From Ensifer adhaerens (GTDB lineage: Bacteria > Pseudomonadota > Alphaproteobacteria > Rhizobiales > Rhizobiaceae), in assembly GCF_020035535.1 (NCBI RefSeq), contig NZ_CP083351.1:186001-250000 (forward strand): a stretch of 64,000 nucleotides of DNA, given 5' to 3'. Below are positions 31,934 through 41,684 of this stretch, one piece after another. Both the position numbers and the translations under genes were made by a program. Under the pieces are notes generated by a model, which saw only the letters and a list, made by a program, of their open reading frames with translations, ran no database searches and was not told the DNA's origin. Position 1 is the first letter of the stretch. Each line of letters starts with the position of its first letter.

Positions 31934-32374
31934 ACAACTGAAGCCTCGCAGTGTAGTGGCCCCTAAATCCCTGAACACGATCTCCCACTTGTTAAGTGTT
32001 AGGAGTAAGGTGCCCATTATGACCAGTCACATACCTAAGATAGAAGTGCTGTCCGGCCCGGAGCGGGATCGGCTGAACCGAAACTTCGAGCGGGGTGTCG
32101 ATCTAAAGATTGGACTTGGCGTTGCCTGGAACGTGGAATTAGGAAGGTCCGACCGCATCTGGCGCGGCCGAGGAAGGTGAGAGGAGGAGGGTGCTTGATC
32201 CACCCTCATTTCGCGGTCGGCCATTGGTTTAGCTCCAAGCCACTGCGCGATGCGTCTGTACGAGACAGACAGCGGCGTTTGCCTCCGCGTGAGCATTCAG
32301 GAACTCGGCTGATCGGACCGTAGCGTGGCGAGATGTTGAGGAACCATCGGACCATCGATCGCCTCACCGTTTCA
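31934..32374. other. Intergenic region before the LysR-linked cluster
   Basis: No convincing gene. The first copy of the GCAATW-N17-GCAATT element follows immediately at 32375. Confidence 0.4.
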
Positions 32375-32410
32375 AATTGCGCAATAAAATCGAAACTATT
32401 GGCGCAATTG
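32375..32410 (+). promoter_or_regulatory. Operator-like element, copy 1 (before the hydrolase gene)
   Basis: Contains GCAATA, then AAATCGAAACTATTGGC, then GCAATT. Spacing of 17 bases between the hexamers is identical in all four copies. It ends 46 bases before the hydrolase ATG. Likely bound by the LysR protein of 34880-35779 (inference). Confidence 0.6.
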
Positions 32411-32456
32411 TGAGCGCCCTGCGCTTTCGGCAGTATCAGCCCGTCAGACGAACTTA

Positions 32457-33479
32457 ATGTCGGCTGAAGCCTCAATGAAGAAGCCGCCGGTAGACGAAAT
32501 GACCCAGACCTTTTCTTCCATCACACGCAGAAACGCACTTCGTTCCGCAGGTGCCGCCCTCGCAACCATGGCGCTTTCACCGTCCCTCAATCTGGCAGCC
32601 AAGGCTGCATCAGCATCAAGCTTAACCGAAGGAACCAAGACAATGGCATATGTCACCACCAAGGACGGCGTCGAAATATTCTACAAGGACTGGGGTCCGA
32701 AGGACGCTCAGCCGATCGTCTTCCACCATGGCTGGCCGCTGTCGTCGGACGACTGGGATGCCCAGATGCTGTTCTTCCTGTCAAAGGGTTATCGCGTCGT
32801 TGCTCATGATCGCCGTGGGCACGGACGTTCCGCCCAGGTTTCCGACGGTCATGATATGGATCACTACGCCGCGGATGCCTTTGCCGTCGTCGAAGCGCTC
32901 GACCTTAAGAATGCCGTCCACATCGGTCACTCGACGGGCGGTGGCGAGGTCGCCCGCTATGTCGCCAAGCACGGCCAGCCGAGCGGTCGCGTCGCCAAGG
33001 CGGTTCTCGTTTCCGCCGTACCTCCACTGATGCTCAAGACTGAAGCCAATCCTGATGGCCTGCCGATGGAAGTCTTCGACGGTTTCCGTTCGGCGCTTGC
33101 CGCCAACCGCGCGCAGTTCTTCCGCGACGTTCCGGCCGGCCCGTTCTACGGCTTCAACCGTGATGGTGCCACAGTCCAGGAAGGCGTGATCCAGAATTGG
33201 TGGCGCCAGGGCATGATGGGCGGAGCGAAGCCCCATTACGATGGCATCAAGGCTTTCTCCGAAACCGACCAGACGGAAGACCTGAAGGCCATCACGCTGC
33301 CGACGCTGGTCCTACACGGCGAAGACGACCAGATCGTGCCGATCGAAGACTCTGCGCTGAAGTCTTCCAAGCTTCTGAAGAATGGCGCGCTCAAGACCTA
33401 TCCCGGCTTCTCGCACGGCATGCTGACCGTCAACGCAGATGTCTTGAATGCCGATCTCCTGGCCTTCGTGAAGGCCTGA
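32457..33479 (+). CDS. Tat-exported alpha/beta hydrolase (non-heme chloroperoxidase type)
   Basis: 340 residues. The N-terminal 60 residues form a twin-arginine signal ([20 protein letters not shown]). The mature part is the perhydrolase/chloroperoxidase family: [29 protein letters not shown], nucleophile elbow [25 protein letters not shown] (Asp) and YPGFSHGM (His). Members often start at the position of ATG 32643, so a cytosolic short form is possible. It heads an apparent operon with RidA and ChaC and follows an operator-like element. Confidence 0.85.
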
Positions 33480-33576
33480 TCGCTCCGGCGGCGGGTGCGG
33501 CCTCCCAAGCATCCGTCGCCTCCATGTACCACGCGTGCGTACTCGGCGCGCCATCATTCTATGCAAGGAAGCTATC

Positions 33577-34035
33577 ATGACGAACAGCAAACCATCCAAA
33601 AAGGTAGAGAACCACGGCGTCGCCTGGGAGCGCGCCTTCGGATACGTTCAGGCCGTGCAGGTCAAGGACACGATCTATCTCTCGGGCCAGTTGAGCCACG
33701 ATGACGACGGCAATCTTGTCGCTCCGGCGGAACTCGATGAGGATAGGCGGCCTGTGGACTTCTCGCAGATGGAGAGCCAGATCCGCCAGACCTACGTCAA
33801 CGCAAAGACGCTGCTGGCCAGATACGGTGCGACCCTCGATGATGTCGTTGAAGAGACGCTGTACGTGCTTGATGTTCCTAGCGCCTTTGCCGCTGGATCC
33901 AAGGTCCGCAAGGAAATGTACGGCACCGATGTGCCCCAGTGCGCCAGCAATCTCATCGGGGTTTCGGCGCTGGCTTTCCCCGAGCAGCTCGTCGAAATCA
34001 CATTCCGGGCAATCATCAACCGACCCACTGATTGA
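33577..34035 (+). CDS. RidA family protein (reactive intermediate deaminase)
   Basis: 152 residues from ATG 33577 with CAAGGAAG upstream. GYVQAVQVKDTIYLSGQLSH, QTYVNAKTLLARYGATLDDV, VVEETLYVLDVPSAF and LVEITFRAII are the RidA/YjgF pattern. RidA proteins trim reactive enamine/imine intermediates. Several residues before the final strand differ from canonical RidA (FRAIIN instead of the usual VEAIA), so it belongs to an Rid7-like subgroup and may act on another substrate. Gene follows the hydrolase by 97 bases. Confidence 0.85.
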   Translation: MTNSKPSKKVENHGVAWERAFGYVQAVQVKDTIYLSGQLSHDDDGNLVAPAELDEDRRPVDFSQMESQIRQTYVNAKTLLARYGATLDDVVEETLYVLDVPSAFAAGSKVRKEMYGTDVPQCASNLIGVSALAFPEQLVEITFRAIINRPTD

Positions 34036-34110
34036 TCGGGCGGCAGCCACTCCAAGAACCGCCGGAGGCCATGAGCCGCCGGCGGCAAACTCGTTGAAAC
34101 GGTTGACACG

Positions 34111-34839
34111 ATGCCAAAGACACCGGCCGCCAAGGTGCCCGCACCTGCTACCATGGACCTTACCCCCGAGCTCGTCGCCACGACCATCAGGATTGTAAAA
34201 GACGAGGGCCCGGAACCCAATTGGCATCCGATCTCGCCTGAGCAGCTCGACGACCTCGTCTGCAGGGTTGAGGAAGAGGCCGGTGACGAGGAGATATGGG
34301 TGTTCGCGTATGGTTCCTTGATGTGGAACCCGGGTTTCGAGGTGGCCGCCAGCGAAGAGGCCGTCGCTTACGGCTGGCACCGTGCGTTCTCGTTGAGGAT
34401 TGAGCGGCTGAGGGCCACCTCCGACGCGCCCGGTCTCATGCTCGCGCTTCGGCCAGGCGGAAGCTGTTCGGGTCTTGTCCTCAAGCTTGCGTGCACTAGC
34501 AAGAGGGAGGATCTGCGCACTCTTCTCGCGCGAGAGCTACGGTATGCCGAAGTGTGCGACATGGTGCGGTGGGTTTCAGTCAAGACACCGACGGGTGTGC
34601 GGCGGGCGCTCACGTTCTGGGCGAGTGGCAGGCAATCTGCGCTCACGCAGAAGATCCCCCTCGAAGAGGCGGCAGGGTTGATCGCGCAGGCCTGTGGACC
34701 TGCCGGATCTTGCGCGGAATACCTGCATCGGACGGTTTCAGATCTGGCGGATCGCAAAATCTATGATCGAAACCTATGGCAGCTACAGCAAATAGTCGCG
34801 GGTAGGCTTCGAGCGCTCCAACAGCATGATCCAATCTGA
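34111..34839 (+). CDS. ChaC-like gamma-glutamylcyclotransferase
   Basis: 242 residues. The signature VFAYGSLMWNPGFEV (glycine loop of the GGCT fold) follows an N-terminal stretch of about 65 residues. GWHRAFSL, RATSDAPGLMLALRPGGSC and the catalytic Glu candidate in LLARELRYAEVCD follow. ChaC enzymes cleave glutathione to 5-oxoproline and Cys-Gly. Together with the VOC and isochorismatase-like proteins this suggests thiol and electrophile handling. The gene is convergent with lysR. Confidence 0.8.
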   Translation: MPKTPAAKVPAPATMDLTPELVATTIRIVKDEGPEPNWHPISPEQLDDLVCRVEEEAGDEEIWVFAYGSLMWNPGFEVAASEEAVAYGWHRAFSLRIERLRATSDAPGLMLALRPGGSCSGLVLKLACTSKREDLRTLLARELRYAEVCDMVRWVSVKTPTGVRRALTFWASGRQSALTQKIPLEEAAGLIAQACGPAGSCAEYLHRTVSDLADRKIYDRNLWQLQQIVAGRLRALQQHDPI

Positions 34840-34879
34840 AACGGGTGTGCCAGATCATGGTGACGGGCATTTGCGTGCG

Positions 34880-35779
34880 TCAGTCCAACATGACCATCTT
34901 TGCCGCGACCTGCTCCTCGAAGAACTTGGAGAATGACGCAATCCTTGGCGGGAGGGTTTGGTAGGGCGGGTAGAACAGCGTCAGCCACAGTTCCGGCGGC
35001 GCCCATCCCTTGAAGACGTGGACAAGGCGACCGCTACTGATGTGATCGGCGATGTTGAATCCTGGAAGCAGCGCGACACCCGCACCGTCGGCGGCCATGT
35101 CCGCCAGAACCTCTCCGCTGTTCGCGCTGAAGGCTCGACCTGCCGAAATCGCGATGCTTGACGCACCGTCCGACAGCACCCAGTTCTCACGCCGGCTTTC
35201 GCCGCTGTACGCGAGGCAGTCATCGGGCTTCAGTTCGTTCGGGTGCTGCATGTCGACGTATCTGCTTCCGGGAGCGGCAACCAGGATGCGCGGCACCACC
35301 CGGATCTTCCTCCAGATCGTGAACTTGTCCGAAGGCTGCGACGAGATGCGGATCGCCAGATCGTAGTCGTCGTCGACGATGTTCACCAATCCATCGGACA
35401 GCGAAATCTCGAAGCTCATCTTCGGATAGCGTTCCTTGAACCCAGACAGGATCGGCGGCAGCACTGTCTTGCCGAACCATGTCGGCGCACTGATACGCAG
35501 CCGGCCCTCGTCCGACTTGTGTGCGTTCATTACTTCGCGCCGCGCCTCCTCCAGAGTCTTGAACGCTGGCTGGATCTGCGCCGCAAAGATTGCGCCGTCG
35601 GTTGTCAGCGATACCTGTCTTGTCGTGCGAACGAAGAGCTGCACGCCAAGTTCCGCCTCAAGCGCGGCGATCGCCCGTGTGACGGCTGCGGGCGTCATAT
35701 CCAGTTCGCGGGCGACCTGGGCAAAGTTCCGCTTCTCAGCCGCGAGCAGAAAGGTTCGGAGAGCTTTGTAGTCGTTCAT
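34880..35779 (-). CDS. LysR family transcriptional regulator
   Basis: 299 residues. The winged helix-turn-helix is at the N-terminus (MNDYKALRTFLLAAEKRNFA, QVARELDMTPAAVTRAIAAL, EAELGVQLFVRTTRQVSLT). The periplasmic-binding-like effector domain follows from about residue 90. It is divergent from the VOC dioxygenase gene with an operator-like element in the 111-base gap. Three further elements of the same kind lie before other units of the cluster, so it is the likely local regulator. The inducer is unknown. Confidence 0.92.
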   Translation of the reverse strand: MNDYKALRTFLLAAEKRNFAQVARELDMTPAAVTRAIAALEAELGVQLFVRTTRQVSLTTDGAIFAAQIQPAFKTLEEARREVMNAHKSDEGRLRISAPTWFGKTVLPPILSGFKERYPKMSFEISLSDGLVNIVDDDYDLAIRISSQPSDKFTIWRKIRVVPRILVAAPGSRYVDMQHPNELKPDDCLAYSGESRRENWVLSDGASSIAISAGRAFSANSGEVLADMAADGAGVALLPGFNIADHISSGRLVHVFKGWAPPELWLTLFYPPYQTLPPRIASFSKFFEEQVAAKMVMLD

Positions 35780-35791
35780 CTCATTGTTTCA

Positions 35792-35829
35792 TGAATTGCA
35801 ATTCAATCAAAAGGAATATTGCAATTCTG
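35792..35829 (+). promoter_or_regulatory. Operator-like element, copy 2 (lysR / VOC dioxygenase gap)
   Basis: GCAATT, then CAATCAAAAGGAATATT, then GCAATT, with the hexamers 17 bases apart. It sits 12 bases from the lysR start and 61 bases before the VOC ATG, so it could control both directions. Confidence 0.65.
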
Positions 35830-35890
35830 AACGACGATCAACGGGCCTACATTCTTATCAACACCGGAACACAAACCGAGAGGCTTCAGG

Positions 35891-36823
35891 ATGATCAAGG
35901 ACATCAAGGGACTGCACCACGTGACTTCGATGGCATCGGACGCGCGGCAGAACAACCGATTCTTCACCGACACGCTCGGTCTTCGTCGCGTCAAGCAGAC
36001 TGTTAACTTCGACGACCCGAGCGTCTATCACCTCTACTATGGTGACGAGGCGGGCTCGGCCGGAACGGTGATGACCTACTTCCCATTCCCGAACATGATG
36101 CTTGGCCGCCCCGGTGTCGGTGAAGTCGGCGAGACCCAGTTCTCCGTTCCCGAGGGATCGCTGAAGTTCTGGCAGGATCGCTTCACAACCAAAGGCGTGG
36201 ACGGTCTGGAGCGCGATACTGTCTTCGGCGTCGACCGACTCCGTTTCATGGGACCGGACGGCGACAGCTTTGCGCTTATCGAGTCCGCTGACGACAAGCG
36301 TGCTCCATGGCTGGCAGATGGTATTCCAGATGATGCAGCCATCCGCGGTTTCGCTGGCGCGCGCTTCAGCCTGCGCGACACCGCTGCAACGGAGGAGCTG
36401 CTCGGCTTCATGGGCTACGAGCGCGCCGAGAAGGAGGGCGACGTCGTACGCTTCATCATACCCAACGGTAACGGAGCGGACACGATCGATCTACTGGCGT
36501 TGCCAAAGACGCCGTTCGCGCGACAAGGTGCAGGTTCGGTGCACCATATCGCATTCGCCGTCGACAACCGCGAGAAGCAGCTAGAGGTGCGCAAGGCGCT
36601 GATGGACACCGGCTACCAGGTCACCCCCGTCATCGACCGCGATTATTTCTGGGCCATCTACTTCCGCACGCCGGGCGGTATCCTCTTCGAGGTCGCCACA
36701 AACGAGCCTGGATTCAACCGCGACGAGGATACAGCTCACCTCGGGGAAGCCCTTAAACTTCCGGCCAGATACGAGGAATACCGCGAACAGATCCAGGCCA
36801 ATCTCGTGCCGCTGGCGGTATAA
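35891..36823 (+). CDS. VOC-fold ring-cleaving dioxygenase
   Basis: 310 residues with two VOC repeats. The first begins IKGLHHVTSMASDARQNNRF, with FTDTLGLRRVKQTVNFDDP. The second has VHHIAFAVDNREKQLEVRK and FRTPGGILFEVATNEPGF, which supply the His and Glu metal ligands. The length and arrangement match the MhqO/MhqA group of hydroquinone-cleaving dioxygenases, which detoxify quinones and related electrophiles. The RBS is GAGAGGCTTCAGG. It is a single-gene unit driven from the lysR gap. Confidence 0.85.
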   Translation: MIKDIKGLHHVTSMASDARQNNRFFTDTLGLRRVKQTVNFDDPSVYHLYYGDEAGSAGTVMTYFPFPNMMLGRPGVGEVGETQFSVPEGSLKFWQDRFTTKGVDGLERDTVFGVDRLRFMGPDGDSFALIESADDKRAPWLADGIPDDAAIRGFAGARFSLRDTAATEELLGFMGYERAEKEGDVVRFIIPNGNGADTIDLLALPKTPFARQGAGSVHHIAFAVDNREKQLEVRKALMDTGYQVTPVIDRDYFWAIYFRTPGGILFEVATNEPGFNRDEDTAHLGEALKLPARYEEYREQIQANLVPLAV

Positions 36824-36923
36824 GCAGCAGTCACCGAAAGTTTGGAAACAGCGCCGTGATCCGAAAGGATCGCGGCGTTCTTCCGTTTCTAACGTGCCCT
36901 CCAAGCAACCATTGTTGCAAATA

Positions 36924-36956
36924 TAGCAATTCAATCAAAATTTTTATTGCAATTCC
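36924..36956 (+). promoter_or_regulatory. Operator-like element, copy 3 (before the isochorismatase-like gene)
   Basis: GCAATT, then CAATCAAAATTTTTATT, then GCAATT. A further TTGCAA lies 6 bases upstream (36915-36920). It is 182 bases before ATG 37138. Confidence 0.65.
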
Positions 36957-37137
36957 TCGGGTGGTAGCGACGCGGTAAGTTTGTTTTCAGCCGCCAAGAC
37001 GACGAGTGCATCGGCCCGGAACGGAGCCAGCAACACTCAAAGAATTGCAGAGCGAGCGCCGCTCGACGGCGTCCGATCGACCGCTGCTGACCATTTTCTG
37101 GCACCGCACACGGGCCGCAACCGAAGAGGAAAGAACC

Positions 37138-37827
37138 ATGTCCAAGCTTGAAGTCCTGACCCCGGCGAACAGCCAGCTCATCTTCATTGACCAGCAGCCG
37201 CAGATGGCCTTCGGTGTCCAGTCGATTGACCGCCAGACGTTGAAGAACAATGTCGTCGGCCTCGCCAAGGCCGCCAGGATCTTCGATATCCCGACCACGA
37301 TCACCACGGTCGAGACGCAATCCTTCTCTGGCAACACCTTTCCCGAACTCCTTGCCGTTTTCCCGGAGAACGACCTCCTCGAGCGCACGTCGATGAACTC
37401 CTGGGACGATCAGAACGTCCGTGACGCTCTGGCGAAGAATGCCTCCACCGGCCGGAAGAAGATCGTCGTCTCCGGTCTCTGGACCGAGGTCTGCAACACT
37501 ACTTTTGCTCTTTCCGCTCTCCATGATGTTCCGGAATACGAGATCTACATGGTCGCCGATGCTTCCGGCGGCACTTCGGCGGACGCGCACAAGTACGCGA
37601 TGGACCGGCTGGTGCAGGCAGGCGTGATCCCGGTCACCTGGCAGCAGGTCCTGCTCGAATGGCAGCGCGATTGGGCGCGGAAGGAAACCTACGATGCGGT
37701 CACCACGCTGGTGAAGGAGCATTCCGGCGCCTACGGCATGGGCATCGACTACGCCTACACGATGGTTCATGGCGCAGAAGAACGCGTCAGGCATGGCAAG
37801 CGCATCGGCCCGAACCCCGCAAAGTAG
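37138..37827 (+). CDS. Isochorismatase-family cysteine hydrolase
   Basis: 229 residues from ATG 37138 with GAGGAAAG upstream. The catalytic set is D18 (LIFIDQQPQM), a Lys near 106-108 and C119 (VVSGLWTEVCNTTFAL). The segments TITTVETQSFSGNTFPE and ADASGGTSADAHKYAMDRL fit the group annotated as YcaC-like hydrolases. The family cleaves amides or vinyl ethers; the substrate is unknown. It is followed by an XapX and a Tat amidohydrolase gene. Confidence 0.85.
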   Translation: MSKLEVLTPANSQLIFIDQQPQMAFGVQSIDRQTLKNNVVGLAKAARIFDIPTTITTVETQSFSGNTFPELLAVFPENDLLERTSMNSWDDQNVRDALAKNASTGRKKIVVSGLWTEVCNTTFALSALHDVPEYEIYMVADASGGTSADAHKYAMDRLVQAGVIPVTWQQVLLEWQRDWARKETYDAVTTLVKEHSGAYGMGIDYAYTMVHGAEERVRHGKRIGPNPAK

Positions 37828-37891
37828 GGCCCCGATCCAACCGCTCCGGTCACACGGTCGGAGTGGCCCTTTCGCAACCGGAGATCATCCC

Positions 37892-38170
37892 ATGAAGCTC
37901 TACCTCCTATCGCTAGGCGCAGGCCTGCTTGTTGGCATCGTCTACAGCCTGCTCAATGTCCGCTCACCCGCGCCGCCCGTTATCGCCCTCGTTGGCCTTT
38001 TGGGCATCCTGGTCGGCGAACAGATCATCCCGCTCGCGAAATCTCTCTGGACGAGGGAACCGGCGGCCATTTCATGGATCCATCAGATCAAGCCACACAT
38101 GTTCGGTCATCTGCCGAAGGGCAACGAGGTTGCTCATCAGACGAAGGTTCATGTAGGGGAGCGGAGCTGA
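37892..38170 (+). CDS. XapX domain (DUF1427) small membrane protein
   Basis: 92 residues. The XapX domain is LYLLSLGAGLLVGIVYSLLN, then VRSPAPPVIALVGLLGILVG and EQIIP, two membrane helices. The C-terminal half is soluble and His-rich. XapX proteins often accompany amidohydrolases and xanthosine genes. The stop overlaps the amidohydrolase start at base 38170. Confidence 0.8.
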   Translation: MKLYLLSLGAGLLVGIVYSLLNVRSPAPPVIALVGLLGILVGEQIIPLAKSLWTREPAAISWIHQIKPHMFGHLPKGNEVAHQTKVHVGERS

Positions 38171-40155
38171 TGACGACGCGTCGATCCTTTCTTGGAGGCG
38201 CATCGAGCCTTGCTTTCTCGAACCTCTTCTCACCGGCGAAAGCCGCCGATCCCAGCCAGACCGGAGTAACCACGGTGCAGCATCCCGACTTGATCCTCCA
38301 CAATGGCCGCGTGACCACTCTTGACCGAACCAATCCGAATGCGACAGCGATCGCCATCAAGGATGGTCTGTTTCTCGAAGTCGGATCCGACAGCGAGATC
38401 ATCGCGCTCGCAGGTTCCAGCACCAGGGTCGTTGATCTCAAGGGCAAGCGTGTCCTGCCCGGTCTCATTGACAACCACACCCACGTCGTGCGCGGTGGCC
38501 TGAACTACAACATGGAACTGCGCTGGGATGGCGTGCGCTCGCTCGCCGACGCCATGGACATGCTGAAGCGCCAAGTGGCGATCACGCCTGCGCCGCAATG
38601 GGTGCGCGTGGTCGGCGGCTTCACCGAACACCAGTTCGCCGAAAAACGCCTCCCCACCATCGAGGAAATCAACTCAGTCGCGCCCGACACGCCTGTCTTC
38701 CTCCTTCATCTCTACGACCGCGCGCTGCTCAACGGCGCCGCTCTTCGTGCCGTCGGATACACCCGCGATACGCCGAACCCGCCTGGCGGCGAGATTACGC
38801 GTGATGCCAGCGGGAACCCCACGGGCATGCTTCTCGCCAAGCCGAATGCAGGCATTCTGTATTCGACACTTGCGAAGGGTCCGAAGCTTCCTCTCGACTA
38901 TCAGGTCAACTCGACCCGCCACTTCATGCGCGAACTCAACCGCCTCGGCGTGACAGGTGTCATCGATGCAGGCGGCGGCTTCCAGAACTATCCCGACGAT
39001 TATGAAGTCATCCAGAAGCTTTCCGACGAGAACCAGATGACGGTACGGCTGGCCTACAACCTCTTCACCCAGAAACCGAAGGAAGAGAAGCAGGACTTCC
39101 TGAACTGGACGCAGTCAGTCAAATACAAGCAGGGCAATGACTACTTCCGCCACAACGGCGCCGGCGAGATGCTCGTCTTCTCGGCCGCCGACTTCGAGGA
39201 CTTCCGCCAGCCGCGTCCGGAGATGGTCCCGGAAATGGAAGGCGAGCTTGAAGAGGTCGTCCGCGTCCTGGCGGAAAACCGCTGGCCCTGGCGTCTGCAT
39301 GCCACCTACGACGAGACGATCTCTCGAGCCCTCGACGTGTTCGAGAAGGTCAACAAGGACATCCCGCTCGAAGGTTTGAACTGGTTCTTCGACCACGCAG
39401 AAACGATCTCCGACCGCTCGATCGACCGGATCGCCGCCCTCGGTGGTGGTATCGCCACGCAGCACCGCATGGCGTATCAGGGCGAATACTTCGTCGAGCG
39501 CTACGGCCACGGCGTCGCGGAAGCGACACCGCCGATCAGGAAGATGCTCGACAAGGGCGTGAACGTCTCGGCTGGCACCGACGCCACCCGCGTCGCCTCC
39601 TATAATCCTTGGGTTTCGCTATCGTGGATGGTGACTGGCAAGACCGTTGGCGGCCTGCAGCTCTATCCGCGGGCCAACTGCCTCGACCGTGAAACCGCGC
39701 TGCGGATGTGGACGGAAAAGGTCACATGGTTCTCCAATGAGGAGGGTAAGAAGGGGCGTATTGAGAAGGGCCAGTTTGCCGACCTCGTGGTGCCGGACAA
39801 GGATTTCTTCTCCTGCGCCGAGGATGAGATCTCCTTCCTGGTATCGGAGCTGACCATGGTCGGCGGCAAGATCGTCTACGGCGCGGGCGACTTCAAGACG
39901 CTGGACGAGAACGACATCCCGCCTGCGATGCCCGACTGGTCGCCTGTCCGCAAATTCGGCGGCTATGCGGCCTGGGGTGAACCGGAAGGGGCGGGCGCTC
40001 GTTCCCTGCGCCGCACCGCGATCTCCACATGCGGATGTGCGAGCGATTGCGGCGTTCACGGCCATGACCACGCCGGTGCCTGGACATCCAAGCTCCCGAT
40101 CGCCGATCTCAAAGGTTTCTTCGGCGCTCTCGGCTGCTCCTGCTGGGCGGTCTGA
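38170..40155 (+). CDS. Tat-exported amidohydrolase (YtcJ-like) with a Cys/His-rich tail
   Basis: 661 residues. The leader TTRRSFLGGASSLAFSNLF is a twin-arginine signal. DLILHNGRVTTLDRTNPNAT and LPGLIDNHTHVVRGG (HxH metal site) open the amidohydrolase domain. WFFDHAETISDRSID and VSAGTDATRVASYNPW complete the metal-binding pattern of the YtcJ group. An unusual C-terminal tail (STCGCASDCGVHGHDHAGAW, then GCSCWAV) holds five Cys and two clustered His, which suggests a metal-binding addition. Substrate unknown. Confidence 0.85.
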   Translation: MTTRRSFLGGASSLAFSNLFSPAKAADPSQTGVTTVQHPDLILHNGRVTTLDRTNPNATAIAIKDGLFLEVGSDSEIIALAGSSTRVVDLKGKRVLPGLIDNHTHVVRGGLNYNMELRWDGVRSLADAMDMLKRQVAITPAPQWVRVVGGFTEHQFAEKRLPTIEEINSVAPDTPVFLLHLYDRALLNGAALRAVGYTRDTPNPPGGEITRDASGNPTGMLLAKPNAGILYSTLAKGPKLPLDYQVNSTRHFMRELNRLGVTGVIDAGGGFQNYPDDYEVIQKLSDENQMTVRLAYNLFTQKPKEEKQDFLNWTQSVKYKQGNDYFRHNGAGEMLVFSAADFEDFRQPRPEMVPEMEGELEEVVRVLAENRWPWRLHATYDETISRALDVFEKVNKDIPLEGLNWFFDHAETISDRSIDRIAALGGGIATQHRMAYQGEYFVERYGHGVAEATPPIRKMLDKGVNVSAGTDATRVASYNPWVSLSWMVTGKTVGGLQLYPRANCLDRETALRMWTEKVTWFSNEEGKKGRIEKGQFADLVVPDKDFFSCAEDEISFLVSELTMVGGKIVYGAGDFKTLDENDIPPAMPDWSPVRKFGGYAAWGEPEGAGARSLRRTAISTCGCASDCGVHGHDHAGAWTSKLPIADLKGFFGALGCSCWAV

Positions 40156-40200
40156 GCAAACTTCAGCTCGGGTGATCTGGTCACCCGAGCATCACTCTAT

Positions 40201-40243
40201 AATTGCAGATTTTGCAATTAAATCGAAACTATTGCTGCAATTG
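40201..40243 (+). promoter_or_regulatory. Operator-like element, copy 4 (before the DoxX gene)
   Basis: GCAATT, then AAATCGAAACTATTGCT, then GCAATT. Copies 1 and 4 share the run AAATCGAAACTATTG exactly. An extra AATTGCA starts at 40201. It ends 72 bases before the DoxX ATG. Confidence 0.65.
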
Positions 40244-40315
40244 TTGGTAAGGCGGCAACCAGACAATATCGCTCCATCGAACGCAGCCGCTCGCGGCGAC
40301 CACGCAGGAGCAGAT

Positions 40316-40757
40316 ATGATCTACCAATCTCTAAAATCCGACTCAGTCCGGAGCGGTTTGGCACGCGTCGTCGCCTCGCCTGTCGTGCGGACAGCTTCGC
40401 TGCTGGCACTTTGCGCAGCCTATATCCAGGGTTCGCTCACCAAGATCTTCGACTTCAATGGCGCGTTGGCGGAGATGGAACATTTCGGCCTGCAGCCGGC
40501 TGCGTTCTTCGCAATCGCCGTTATCGCATTTGAACTGACGGCTTCCGCTCTGGTGATCTCCGGCTTCCTGCGGTGGGCGGGTTCCCTGGCGCTCGCCGGC
40601 TTCACGCTTCTCGCGACCTTTATCGCGTTGCGCTTCTGGGAGATGGCCGGGCCTGGATCGCATGATGGTGGCCAACGCCTTCTTCGAACATCTCGGCCTC
40701 GCTGGCGCATTCCTCTTCGTCGCCGCATTCGACTTATCCAAGGGAGCAGGCAAATGA
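40316..40757 (+). pseudogene. DoxX family membrane protein, frameshifted
   Basis: From ATG 40316 the frame gives a DoxX protein with four helices: ALCAAYIQGSLTKIFDFNGA, ALAEMEHFGLQPAAFF, LVISGFLRWAG and LLATFIALRFWEM. After about 40650 the correct continuation lies in another frame (RMMVANAFFEHLGLAGAFLF, then VAAFDLSKGAGK), ending in a TGA at 40755-40757. One extra G near 40650 explains this. The raw frame instead runs into the MFS fragment. It follows operator copy 4. Confidence 0.8.
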
Positions 40758-40948
40758 GCACCGCAAAACCATCTGGCGGCACCTTCGCTTTTCTCAAGCA
40801 GCCTGTGTTCGCGGTCTTCTGGATCGCAACCGCCCTCGACAATACGAGAAACTTCGTGCGCGATGTTGCGAGCTCCTGGCTGATGACGGACCTGTCGGCA
40901 TCCCCTGCCGCTCGTCCCGGGGGGCAAGGGCTGCCCGAGCAAGGATGA
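40754..40948 (+). pseudogene. MFS transporter N-terminal fragment
   Basis: Starts at ATG 40754 in an ATGA overlap with the repaired DoxX frame. FAFLKQPVFAVFWIATALDN and NFVRDVASSWLMTDLSASPA are the first helix region of an EntS-like MFS exporter. The sequence leaves the family at about 40907 (RPGGQGLPEQG) and stops, so only about 50 of about 400 residues remain. Truncation marks the end of the LysR-linked segment. Confidence 0.75.
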
Positions 40949-41075
40949 TCAACTCTCAAGCAAGCTCGGCCCTTGAAACGCCCGCTTTGCTCACCTACCT
41001 CAGGTCTGCCGGATGCCCCTCTCGGATCCTGGCACGGGAACGATGGTCCACTCATGCGCTGGACCTGGTTCGGTT

Positions 41076-41100
41076 CATATCGCTTCGCAAGGAGGATATG
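41076..41100 (+). promoter_or_regulatory. Orphan ROSE-like hairpin upstream of the Hsp20 triplet
   Basis: CATAT at 41076 pairs with ATATG at 41096, and UCGCU faces AAGGAGG, the ROSE pattern seen at 7341 and 56670. A CTTGAAA box lies at 40972. The coding sequence behind this ribosome site (ATG 41098) is only a short non-Hsp20 frame. The real Hsp20 start is 150 bases further on. Confidence 0.4.
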
Positions 41101-41252
41101 GTCCGGCGACTGCCCGACCTCCCTTGCTTAGCTGTTGTGCGATCCACCGCCTCGGTCCCGTCCCGTCCGTTTCCGACCGTTCGACCTCCGGTCTGCACGT
41201 CCTTTGCACGTTGCAAGGAACGATGGCTGGTTTCATAGGAAGGAGGATGCAC

Positions 41253-41684
41253 ATGCTCGTATCGGATTTTGGCCGCATCGGTTTCGATCCATTTGTGGAA
41301 GTGCGGCACATGCAGCAAGAAATGAATCGGCGCTTGTCCGACATGACAGCCAGAGCCGCCCAGGAGTTTCCCCCCATCACGATCTGGATGGGTGAGGACA
41401 GCGTGGCGGTGACCGCAGAATTGCCTGGAATCGCGCCTGACGAGCTCGATCTCACGGTTCGCGAAAACACGTTGACGTTGAGGGGGCAGCGCCCTCCGAC
41501 GGAGGAGAAGAAACCCGTCTGGCACCGGCGCGAAAGAGTGTACGGAAACTTCTCTCGAACGGTGCAATTGCCTTTCCGCGTCGATCCAGAACAGGTCGAG
41601 GCGCGTTTCGCAAACGGGCTTCTTGAAGTCGAGCTACACCGGCCTGAGACGGATCGGCCGAAGAAGATCCAGATCAAGGCATAA
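41253..41684 (+). CDS. Small heat-shock protein Hsp20 (first of triplet)
   Basis: 143 residues from ATG 41253, six bases after AGGAGG; an in-frame ATG at 41247 is too close to it. The alpha-crystallin domain has ITIWMGEDSVAVTAELPGIA, then LDLTVRENTLTLRGQR and ARFANGLLEVELHRPE. It starts the run of three class-A-like small heat-shock genes separated by 10-26 bases, probably one transcript. Holdase in the cytosol. Confidence 0.9.
   Translation: MLVSDFGRIGFDPFVEVRHMQQEMNRRLSDMTARAAQEFPPITIWMGEDSVAVTAELPGIAPDELDLTVRENTLTLRGQRPPTEEKKPVWHRRERVYGNFSRTVQLPFRVDPEQVEARFANGLLEVELHRPETDRPKKIQIKA

Follow-up and report, generated by a model that had tools for sequence, protein, structure and literature searches.

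The window analysed here, a stretch of 64,000 nucleotides from Ensifer adhaerens (C3:186001-250000), carries a gene cluster with four copies of a two-part DNA element, the hexamer pair GCAATW-N17-GCAATT. From left to right, the cluster codes for an alpha/beta hydrolase (ABH), a RidA-family protein and a ChaC-like protein; a LysR-type regulator on the minus strand; a VOC-superfamily protein (VOC); a YcaC-like isochorismatase-family hydrolase (ISO), a XapX protein and an amidohydrolase; and a DoxX protein. We predict, from sequence comparison and with high confidence, that the four elements are binding sites of this LysR regulator, each lying in an activator-dependent promoter. The genome (8.13 Mb) consists of three contigs, of which C3 has 735,709 bases. 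Positions 32000-41500 of the window match two Ensifer adhaerens plasmid records (NZ_CP083345 and NZ_CP083348) at 100%. All features are listed in Table 1.

Table 1. Genes, elements and predicted promoter features of the cluster (positions within the window).
Feature	Position	Strand	Evidence and details
Element 1, upstream of ABH-RidA-ChaC	32366..32409	+	left arm 32366-32374; dyad TTTC-N7-GCAA 32370-32384; second GCAATT 32404-32409
Predicted -10 hexamer CAGTAT, unit 1	32431..32436	+	site alignment
ABH, alpha/beta hydrolase, chloroperoxidase/esterase-like by eye	32457..33479	+	PF00561, E 2.1e-30
RidA-family protein	33577..34035	+	PF01042
ChaC-like protein, gamma-glutamylcyclotransferase family	34111..34839	+	PF04752
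LysR-type regulator, proposed binder of all elements	34880..35779	-	PF00126, E 9.6e-20; PF03466, E 1.1e-32; co-occurrence
Element 2, lysR/VOC gap	35783..35826	+	left arm 35783-35791; dyad TTTC-N7-GCAA 35787-35801; second GCAATT 35821-35826
Predicted -10 hexamer TACATT, VOC gene	35848..35853	+	site alignment
VOC-superfamily protein, likely ring-cleaving dioxygenase	35891..36823	+	nearest solved relatives MhqO (3oaj), glyoxalase-family protein (1zsw), PcpA (4huz)
Terminator-like hairpin between VOC and the ISO unit	36850..36879	+	consensus scan
Element 3, upstream of ISO-XapX-amidohydrolase	36911..36954	+	dyad TTGC-N7-GCAA 36915-36929; second GCAATT 36949-36954
Predicted -10 hexamer TAAGTT, unit 3	36976..36981	+	site alignment
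ISO, YcaC-like isochorismatase-family hydrolase	37138..37827	+	PF00857; NF041461 at 121.6 bits, under its cut-off of 310
XapX/DUF1427 small protein, membrane protein by eye	37892..38170	+	profile match
Amidohydrolase (Amidohydro_3)	38170..40155	+	PF07969, E 4.8e-132
Element 4, upstream of DoxX	40199..40242	+	dyad TTGC-N7-GCAA 40203-40217; second GCAATT 40237-40242
Predicted -10 hexamer CAATAT, unit 4	40264..40269	+	site alignment
DoxX gene, fused in frame to the first part of a truncated MFS transporter gene (from 40754)	40316..40948	+	profile matches, comparison with relatives

The regulator has both an N-terminal LysR helix-turn-helix and a C-terminal LysR substrate domain. The adjacent VOC gene likely codes for an MhqO/PcpA-type ring-cleaving dioxygenase, with hydroquinone cleavage as a putative activity. 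Residues 2-309 of this protein align to MhqO (E 2.2e-72), the alignments with MhqO and PcpA are near full-length, and HH 9-10, HH 218-219 and E267 match His-His and Glu positions in both. These positions presumably include the metal ligands of the MhqO/PcpA type. The N-terminus of ABH is twin-arginine-like, as judged by eye. Across the region, the consensus scan found 10 terminator-like hairpins, where 6.8 were expected from shuffles.

A preliminary description of this DNA had listed four equally spaced elements. All four are present, within 7.9 kb and on the plus strand, with first hexamers starting at 32381, 35798, 36926 and 40214; only the coordinates given at the time were 2-13 bases off. 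In the window, the exact pair has five strand matches at four places, as copy 2, being nearly palindromic, gives a second match on the minus strand at 35794. The corresponding mean in 100 dinucleotide shuffles is 0.01 (maximum 1). The motif does not recur at a similar density elsewhere in the genome, an outcome in favour of the finding: the exact pair occurs at only five places, the four in the cluster and C1:1458215, whose middle is unrelated. When up to one mismatch is allowed, the genome has 55 strand matches (six exact, the remainder scattered and without the core shared by the window copies, as judged by eye) versus 11 for the reversed pattern, so that the bare hexamer pair is specific only if exact. 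Copies 1 and 4 share the 15-base core AAATCGAAACTATTG, and the middle AATC(A/G)AAA is found, both as described earlier. Compared with the 29-position consensus, copy 1 has three mismatches, copy 2 has none, and copies 3 and 4 have one each.

The motif was also sought beside the LysR clusters of relatives. We kept 80 of 145 relatives (1.295 Mb), with LysR orthologues at 82-97% identity; they belong to Rhizobium, Ensifer/Sinorhizobium, Agrobacterium, Neorhizobium, Shinella and other genera. Spacing 17 accounts for 159 exact pairs in these loci, whereas any other spacing between 8 and 31 yields 0-9; with one mismatch allowed, the numbers are 259 versus 6-67. A chance origin of the sites is ruled out by this spacing test together with the shuffles and the genome-wide count. 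Sites occur ahead of ABH, ISO and DoxX as well as between lysR and VOC, even when the units are rearranged. For each gene, sites were searched from 320 bases upstream to 150 bases downstream of the open-frame start. At LysR (either strand), the best site has at most one mismatch in 71 of the 80 loci (59 exact), two mismatches in six and four in three; in a few loci that lack VOC, the site counted is that of ISO. On the same strand, 37 of 46 ABH, 55 of 67 VOC and 32 of 66 ISO genes have a site with no more than one mismatch. The DoxX query gave such a site at 53 of 91 matches, some of these matches being a second one in the same operon, to the MFS-like frame. At the same threshold, the operon-internal genes for the amidohydrolase (0/63) and XapX (0/62) have none.

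For the site architecture, the four promoter classes were aligned separately (36 distinct sites for ABH, 55 for VOC, 32 for ISO and 43 for DoxX), position 1 being the G of the first GCAATT. Because the sites were picked for at most one mismatch to the hexamer pair, hexamer conservation in the alignment is a product of this selection; the other positions were not selected. A third block, ATTRTTKC, which the preliminary description had missed, lies at a fixed distance upstream in all four window copies and takes up positions -14 to -7 in the aligned classes. The unselected positions kept in all four classes are T-10 and T-9 (100%), C-7 (97-100%), A15 and T20 (invariant) and A52 (100%). The left arms of window copies 1-4 (GTTTC, GTTTC, GTTGC and ATTGC) each stand exactly 7 bases before GCAAT. 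Thus, TKC-N7-GCA, with a selected GCA half and an unselected left arm, is present in 4/4 window copies, and the consensus of the recognition site is ATTRTTKCa-N6-GCAAT, with the dyad TTKC-N7-GCAA. TKC-N7-GCA fits the T-N11-A pattern, which makes the first GCAAT the right-hand part of a normal LysR box. The preliminary description had seen direct repeats that differ from the usual T-N11-A palindrome. This is not supported, as its first hexamer forms one half of such a palindrome, and its second would belong to a neighbouring activation site over the predicted -35 position. A pure direct-repeat site is ruled out by the conserved left arm in the aligned classes. A recognition site followed by an activation site is the ordinary layout for LysR regulators. 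The second GCAATT occupies positions 24-29, and the GAAA-like positions 12-15 are, by their spacing, a probable further half-site.

Between the second GCAATT and the predicted -10 hexamer, the classes differ (class-mean information of 0.05-0.52 bits at positions 33-50), with a run kept in the VOC class at 40-44. In every class, all sites have A at position 52 and 98-100% have C or T at position 51; in three classes, 97-100% have T at position 56. TATAAT fits best at offset 51 (class mean 0.53; mean over all offsets 0.244, sd 0.085; next 0.45 at 49), while the alternative CTATAT fits 51 and 50 about equally (0.46 and 0.45). By prediction, transcription would start near position 63 (about 32443, 35860, 36988 and 40276 in the window). 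The centre of the dyad would then be near -66, and the second GCAATT would span -39 to -34. The -35 hexamer (positions 28-33) is poor, being of the TTGTKG or TTCCGC type.

The four copies might be alike by descent rather than by constraint, as recent duplicates of one mobile promoter segment. The core shared by copies 1 and 4 fits this idea, as does the pairwise likeness of the classes (ABH with DoxX, VOC with ISO). However, the class spacers differ at positions 33-50 while T-10, T-9, A15, T20 and A52 are constant in 32-55 distinct sites per class. Since the spacers between the second GCAATT and the -10 hexamer differ among the classes, recent duplication is rejected as the whole explanation, and we consider it extremely unlikely.

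LysR-type tetramers contact a recognition site and an activation site and shift upon inducer binding, as outlined in PMC11739112. In our proposal, the LysR tetramer would bind as two dimers. The first would occupy the T-N11-A recognition site, with the dyad centred near -66; the second would occupy the activation site, the right half of which is the second GCAATT, against the -35 region. Half-sites would lie at about positions -9, 3, 14 and 26, so that the successive grooves faced by the four helix-turn-helix units are 11-12 bases apart; the rigid N17 would follow from this arrangement. Once an inducer is bound, the second dimer would move, bringing RNA polymerase to a core promoter whose -10 hexamer is fair and whose -35 hexamer is poor. 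As the four promoters share the site at the same distance from the predicted start, one regulator probably turns on all these likely detoxification genes. LysR would also repress its own gene from element 2; such autorepression is probable because the left arm of this element starts only 4 bases upstream of the lysR start codon.

A recognition site near -66 with a poor -35 and a fair -10 hexamer typifies LysR activators, and a fixed register between site and -10 hexamer over four promoters would be needless for a pure repressor. Both points speak against LysR being mainly a repressor at these sites. We regard this as unlikely, even though the second half-site overlaps the -35 hexamer, where inducer-free binding could block the polymerase, and even though some LysR-type proteins repress basal transcription at the recognition site (RBS) plus the activation subsite ABS' before induction, as described in PMC11739112.

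The assignment of the elements to this LysR regulator is carried by their joint occurrence. In a sample of 199 genomes from the family (Rhizobiaceae), the full 29-position element (at most three mismatches) is found in 12 genomes and the reversed control in none. A LysR search (E 1e-60, at most 11 candidates scored per genome) gave a match in 34 of the 199 genomes, with an identity of 80-100% in 11 of them and of 39-52% in 23. Genomes that have an orthologue (identity at least 80%) carry the element in 11/11 cases, the others in 1/188 (G190); the Fisher P value of 3e-17 overstates independence, because the genomes are related and one of the sites adjoins lysR. Among the best 30 of more than 100 ABH matches, all 10 loci from genomes with the orthologue have the element (1-6 mismatches), whereas 19 of the 20 others show background matches (10-13 mismatches) and one, from G190, has two mismatches. 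Among 19 ISO loci, the element is found in 13 of the 14 from genomes with the orthologue and in one of the other five (G071).

The unlinked sites are the independent and cleaner part of this test. In 5 of the 11 genomes with the orthologue, six sites lie on another contig or at a distance (79 kb in G054). An ABH (G120, G100 C5 and G103), ISO (a paralogue in the genome of the window, site C2:1639722) or DUF1622 gene (G054) follows five of these six sites, while the sixth (G100 C16) ends at a contig edge. The small LysR regulon postulated at the outset is thus supported: the sites track the orthologue, they stand before the same genes in relatives, and their unlinked copies are followed by members of the same families.

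Seven (L183-L189) of the 23 loci with LysR relatives at 39-52% were compared (identity of 46-51% by tblastn). A VOC gene (65-70% identity) is found beside the LysR relative in six of them, L186 being without one in reach. A variant element (5-6 mismatches) lies beside lysR in 6/7 loci; these six variants retain most of the recognition arms and differ in the second site. The variants suggest that operator and regulator have travelled together to less than 50% identity. In L183, L185, L187, L188 and L189 (LysR at about 47-50%, divergent from VOC), the second GCAATT is changed to GCTATT or TCTATT. These five loci form a natural series for operator-regulator co-evolution.

A number of observations weigh against the proposed LysR regulon or the promoter model. 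The left arm of copy 1 in the window is poor. In the VOC sites, C is the commonest base at position 56 (58%), with T in the minority. Recognition near -65 and a second site by -35 are predicted from the -10-like hexamer at 51-56, and a sigma-70 consensus scan shows no promoter at any of the four places, a result that is expected if the -35 hexamer is weak but is not positive evidence. In the stretch searched, 34 of 66 ISO and 9 of 46 ABH genes are without a same-strand site at up to one mismatch. Part of the co-occurrence between element and LysR is built in, one site being beside lysR, and in 6 of the 13 positive ISO loci from genomes with the orthologue, the best match is the lysR/VOC site rather than a site before ISO. 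At L184, the best site beside the LysR relative has nine mismatches, which is near background. G190 has a good element before a hydrolase gene but no LysR match at E 1e-60, and G071 has a weaker element (four mismatches) before an isochorismatase gene but only a 47% LysR relative.

The last two genomes, which carry the element without a LysR orthologue at 80% or more, would be compatible with the binding of another regulator, whose gene lies elsewhere, and with a LysR gene that is a mere neighbour. This is very unlikely in view of the distribution over the 199 genomes, the T-N11-A dyad geometry, which is that of LysR proteins, and the site variants that 46-51% LysR relatives have beside their own gene in six of seven loci. 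We thus retain the LysR protein of the cluster as the predicted regulator. The hydrolase site in G190 (L102 / L163; two mismatches) may be an orphan site or may belong to a second regulator.

The element points to further genes. In the 80 loci, there are 215 elements with at most five mismatches. For 201 of these, the next 450 bases downstream contain a family gene (VOC 66, DoxX 48, ABH 42, ISO 40, RidA 4 and ChaC 1), and for 14 they do not. A reversed control of the long pattern gave no match in these loci at the same threshold; spacing-shift controls gave 43 and 99 matches, presumed to be mostly the same sites out of register, and were not used. Five of the 14 elements without a family gene were looked at; the other nine are found close to the end of a locus or in a lysR gap where no VOC gene is recognised. 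In L046, L047 and L064, the element precedes a DUF1275 frame, which is followed by DUF1622 in L064. DUF1275 and/or DUF1622 genes with an element are found in L046, L047, L064, L118 and L128, and they look like further regulon members in some relatives. In two more loci (L084:6886-7791 and L095:6576-7484), the gene downstream of the element codes for a protein of about 300 residues whose start looks signal-like by eye; one of the two proteins has a sub-cut-off glyoxalase match, and the other has no Pfam family. In loci where ABH is missing or displaced, RidA-ChaC (L044) or ChaC (L059) is preceded by the element, in support of RidA and ChaC belonging to the unit. A scan of viral contigs found no relative.

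The genome of the window has additional ISO copies. One at C2:1638921-1639601 (L151, 88% identity) has a weaker element with two mismatches, and one at C3:585663-586349 (L150, 90% identity) has a weaker element with four; a 53% copy at C2:1933421 is without an element.

The DoxX frame of the window is unusual. Its last part departs from the relatives, enters the MFS start and ends after about 60 MFS residues; the MFS_3 match covers residues 155-199. The relatives mostly have a DoxX protein of about 145-147 aa, with the MFS part matched by a frame of its own (532 aa; 26 of 75 frames). There, DoxX and MFS look like two genes. As element 4 is intact and the DoxX-MFS frame is broken, the operon looks decayed behind a good promoter.

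A role in electrophile or quinone handling, as proposed in the preliminary description on the basis of gene families, is plausible. The inducer is quite possibly a hydroquinone- or quinone-like compound. This guess from gene families is favoured because the lysR-adjacent gene is MhqO/PcpA-like and because two analogous LysR systems answer hydroquinone or chlorophenols (see below). The inducer (hydroquinone, quinone or a related aromatic electrophile) would be cleared by the MhqO-like dioxygenase and the accessory hydrolases. Alternatively, the regulon may serve the ordinary breakdown of an aromatic or amide from plants or soil instead of quinone stress, which we consider possible, if somewhat less so. 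The amidohydrolase, the YcaC-like hydrolase and the alpha/beta hydrolase are catabolic enzyme families, and many relatives are rhizobia or root isolates by their titles; however, ChaC, RidA, DoxX and MFS are judged to be a better fit to detoxification, and no lower-pathway genes are seen in the four units.

This regulon or gene set is not named in the literature searched, as judged by titles and the starts of abstracts, most subscription journals being outside reach. With the proposed regulon, what looked like an unconnected series of genes for hydrolases and proteins of unknown function becomes a single co-regulated unit, for which there is a regulator that can be tested, a defined operator and predicted transcription starts. 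XapX/DUF1427, DoxX, DUF1622 and DUF1275 are four poorly understood small membrane families. As the element is specific (0 reversed-control matches in 199 genomes), it can assign unlinked members and tie these four families to a common job. More tentatively, the element could mark an undescribed, widely shared rhizobial pathway for one class of root-associated aromatic electrophile, sensed by LysR, in which the MhqO-like dioxygenase, the chloroperoxidase-like hydrolase, the YcaC-like hydrolase and the amidohydrolase act together with XapX/DUF1427, DoxX, DUF1622 and DUF1275. If so, the rigid cassette of site and core promoter would be a tag for finding all members, and the identity of the inducer would reveal which chemical these rhizobia must remove.

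Several characterized systems resemble this cluster in part. In the YhaJ regulon of Escherichia coli, a single LysR-type regulator likewise serves several promoters with a common T-N11-A-like box. The gene content differs, save for DoxX, as yqjF is a DoxX-family gene. According to PMC5031710, the regulon comprises yqjF, yhaK, ybiJ, ygiD and yhhW, with yhaK divergent from yhaJ; induction of yqjF by hydroquinone, catechol and dinitrotoluene (DNT) requires YhaJ. Its box is TCA-N7-TGA (PMC5031710), unlike TKC-N7-GCA here, which places the present sites outside the YhaJ box type. RBS and activation site (ABS) of YhaJ are not assigned in PMC11739112.

The second system shares the VOC enzyme. The PcpR box is ATTC-N7-GAAT. 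PcpR of Sphingobium chlorophenolicum is described in PMC4264193 as a LysR-type activator of pcpA, pcpB and pcpE that responds to chlorophenols; it thus controls a homologue of the VOC protein (PcpA). PcpB and PcpE are not among the genes seen here, and the present LysR is not a close relative of PcpR by PDB matches at E 1e-3: none of the 46 matching PDB sequences is named PcpR, the PDB having at most the inducer-binding domain of PcpR according to PMC4264193.

MhqO is the nearest solved relative of the VOC protein. The MhqR/MhqO system, which also exists in Bacillus, has a MarR-type repressor (MhqR), whereas the regulator here is LysR. In Staphylococcus, MhqR serves quinone resistance (PMC6798810).

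A further parallel is with the tetramer sites of OxyR, BenM and CbnR type. The half-site sequence here (TTKC/GCAA) and the gene set differ from those of OxyR, BenM and CbnR. In the sites of these tetramers, a recognition box lies near -65 and an activation site by -35, and the tandem dyads of OxyR repeat every 22 bases. The elements described here are predicted to have the same recognition and activation layout, with a dyad repeat of 23 bases.

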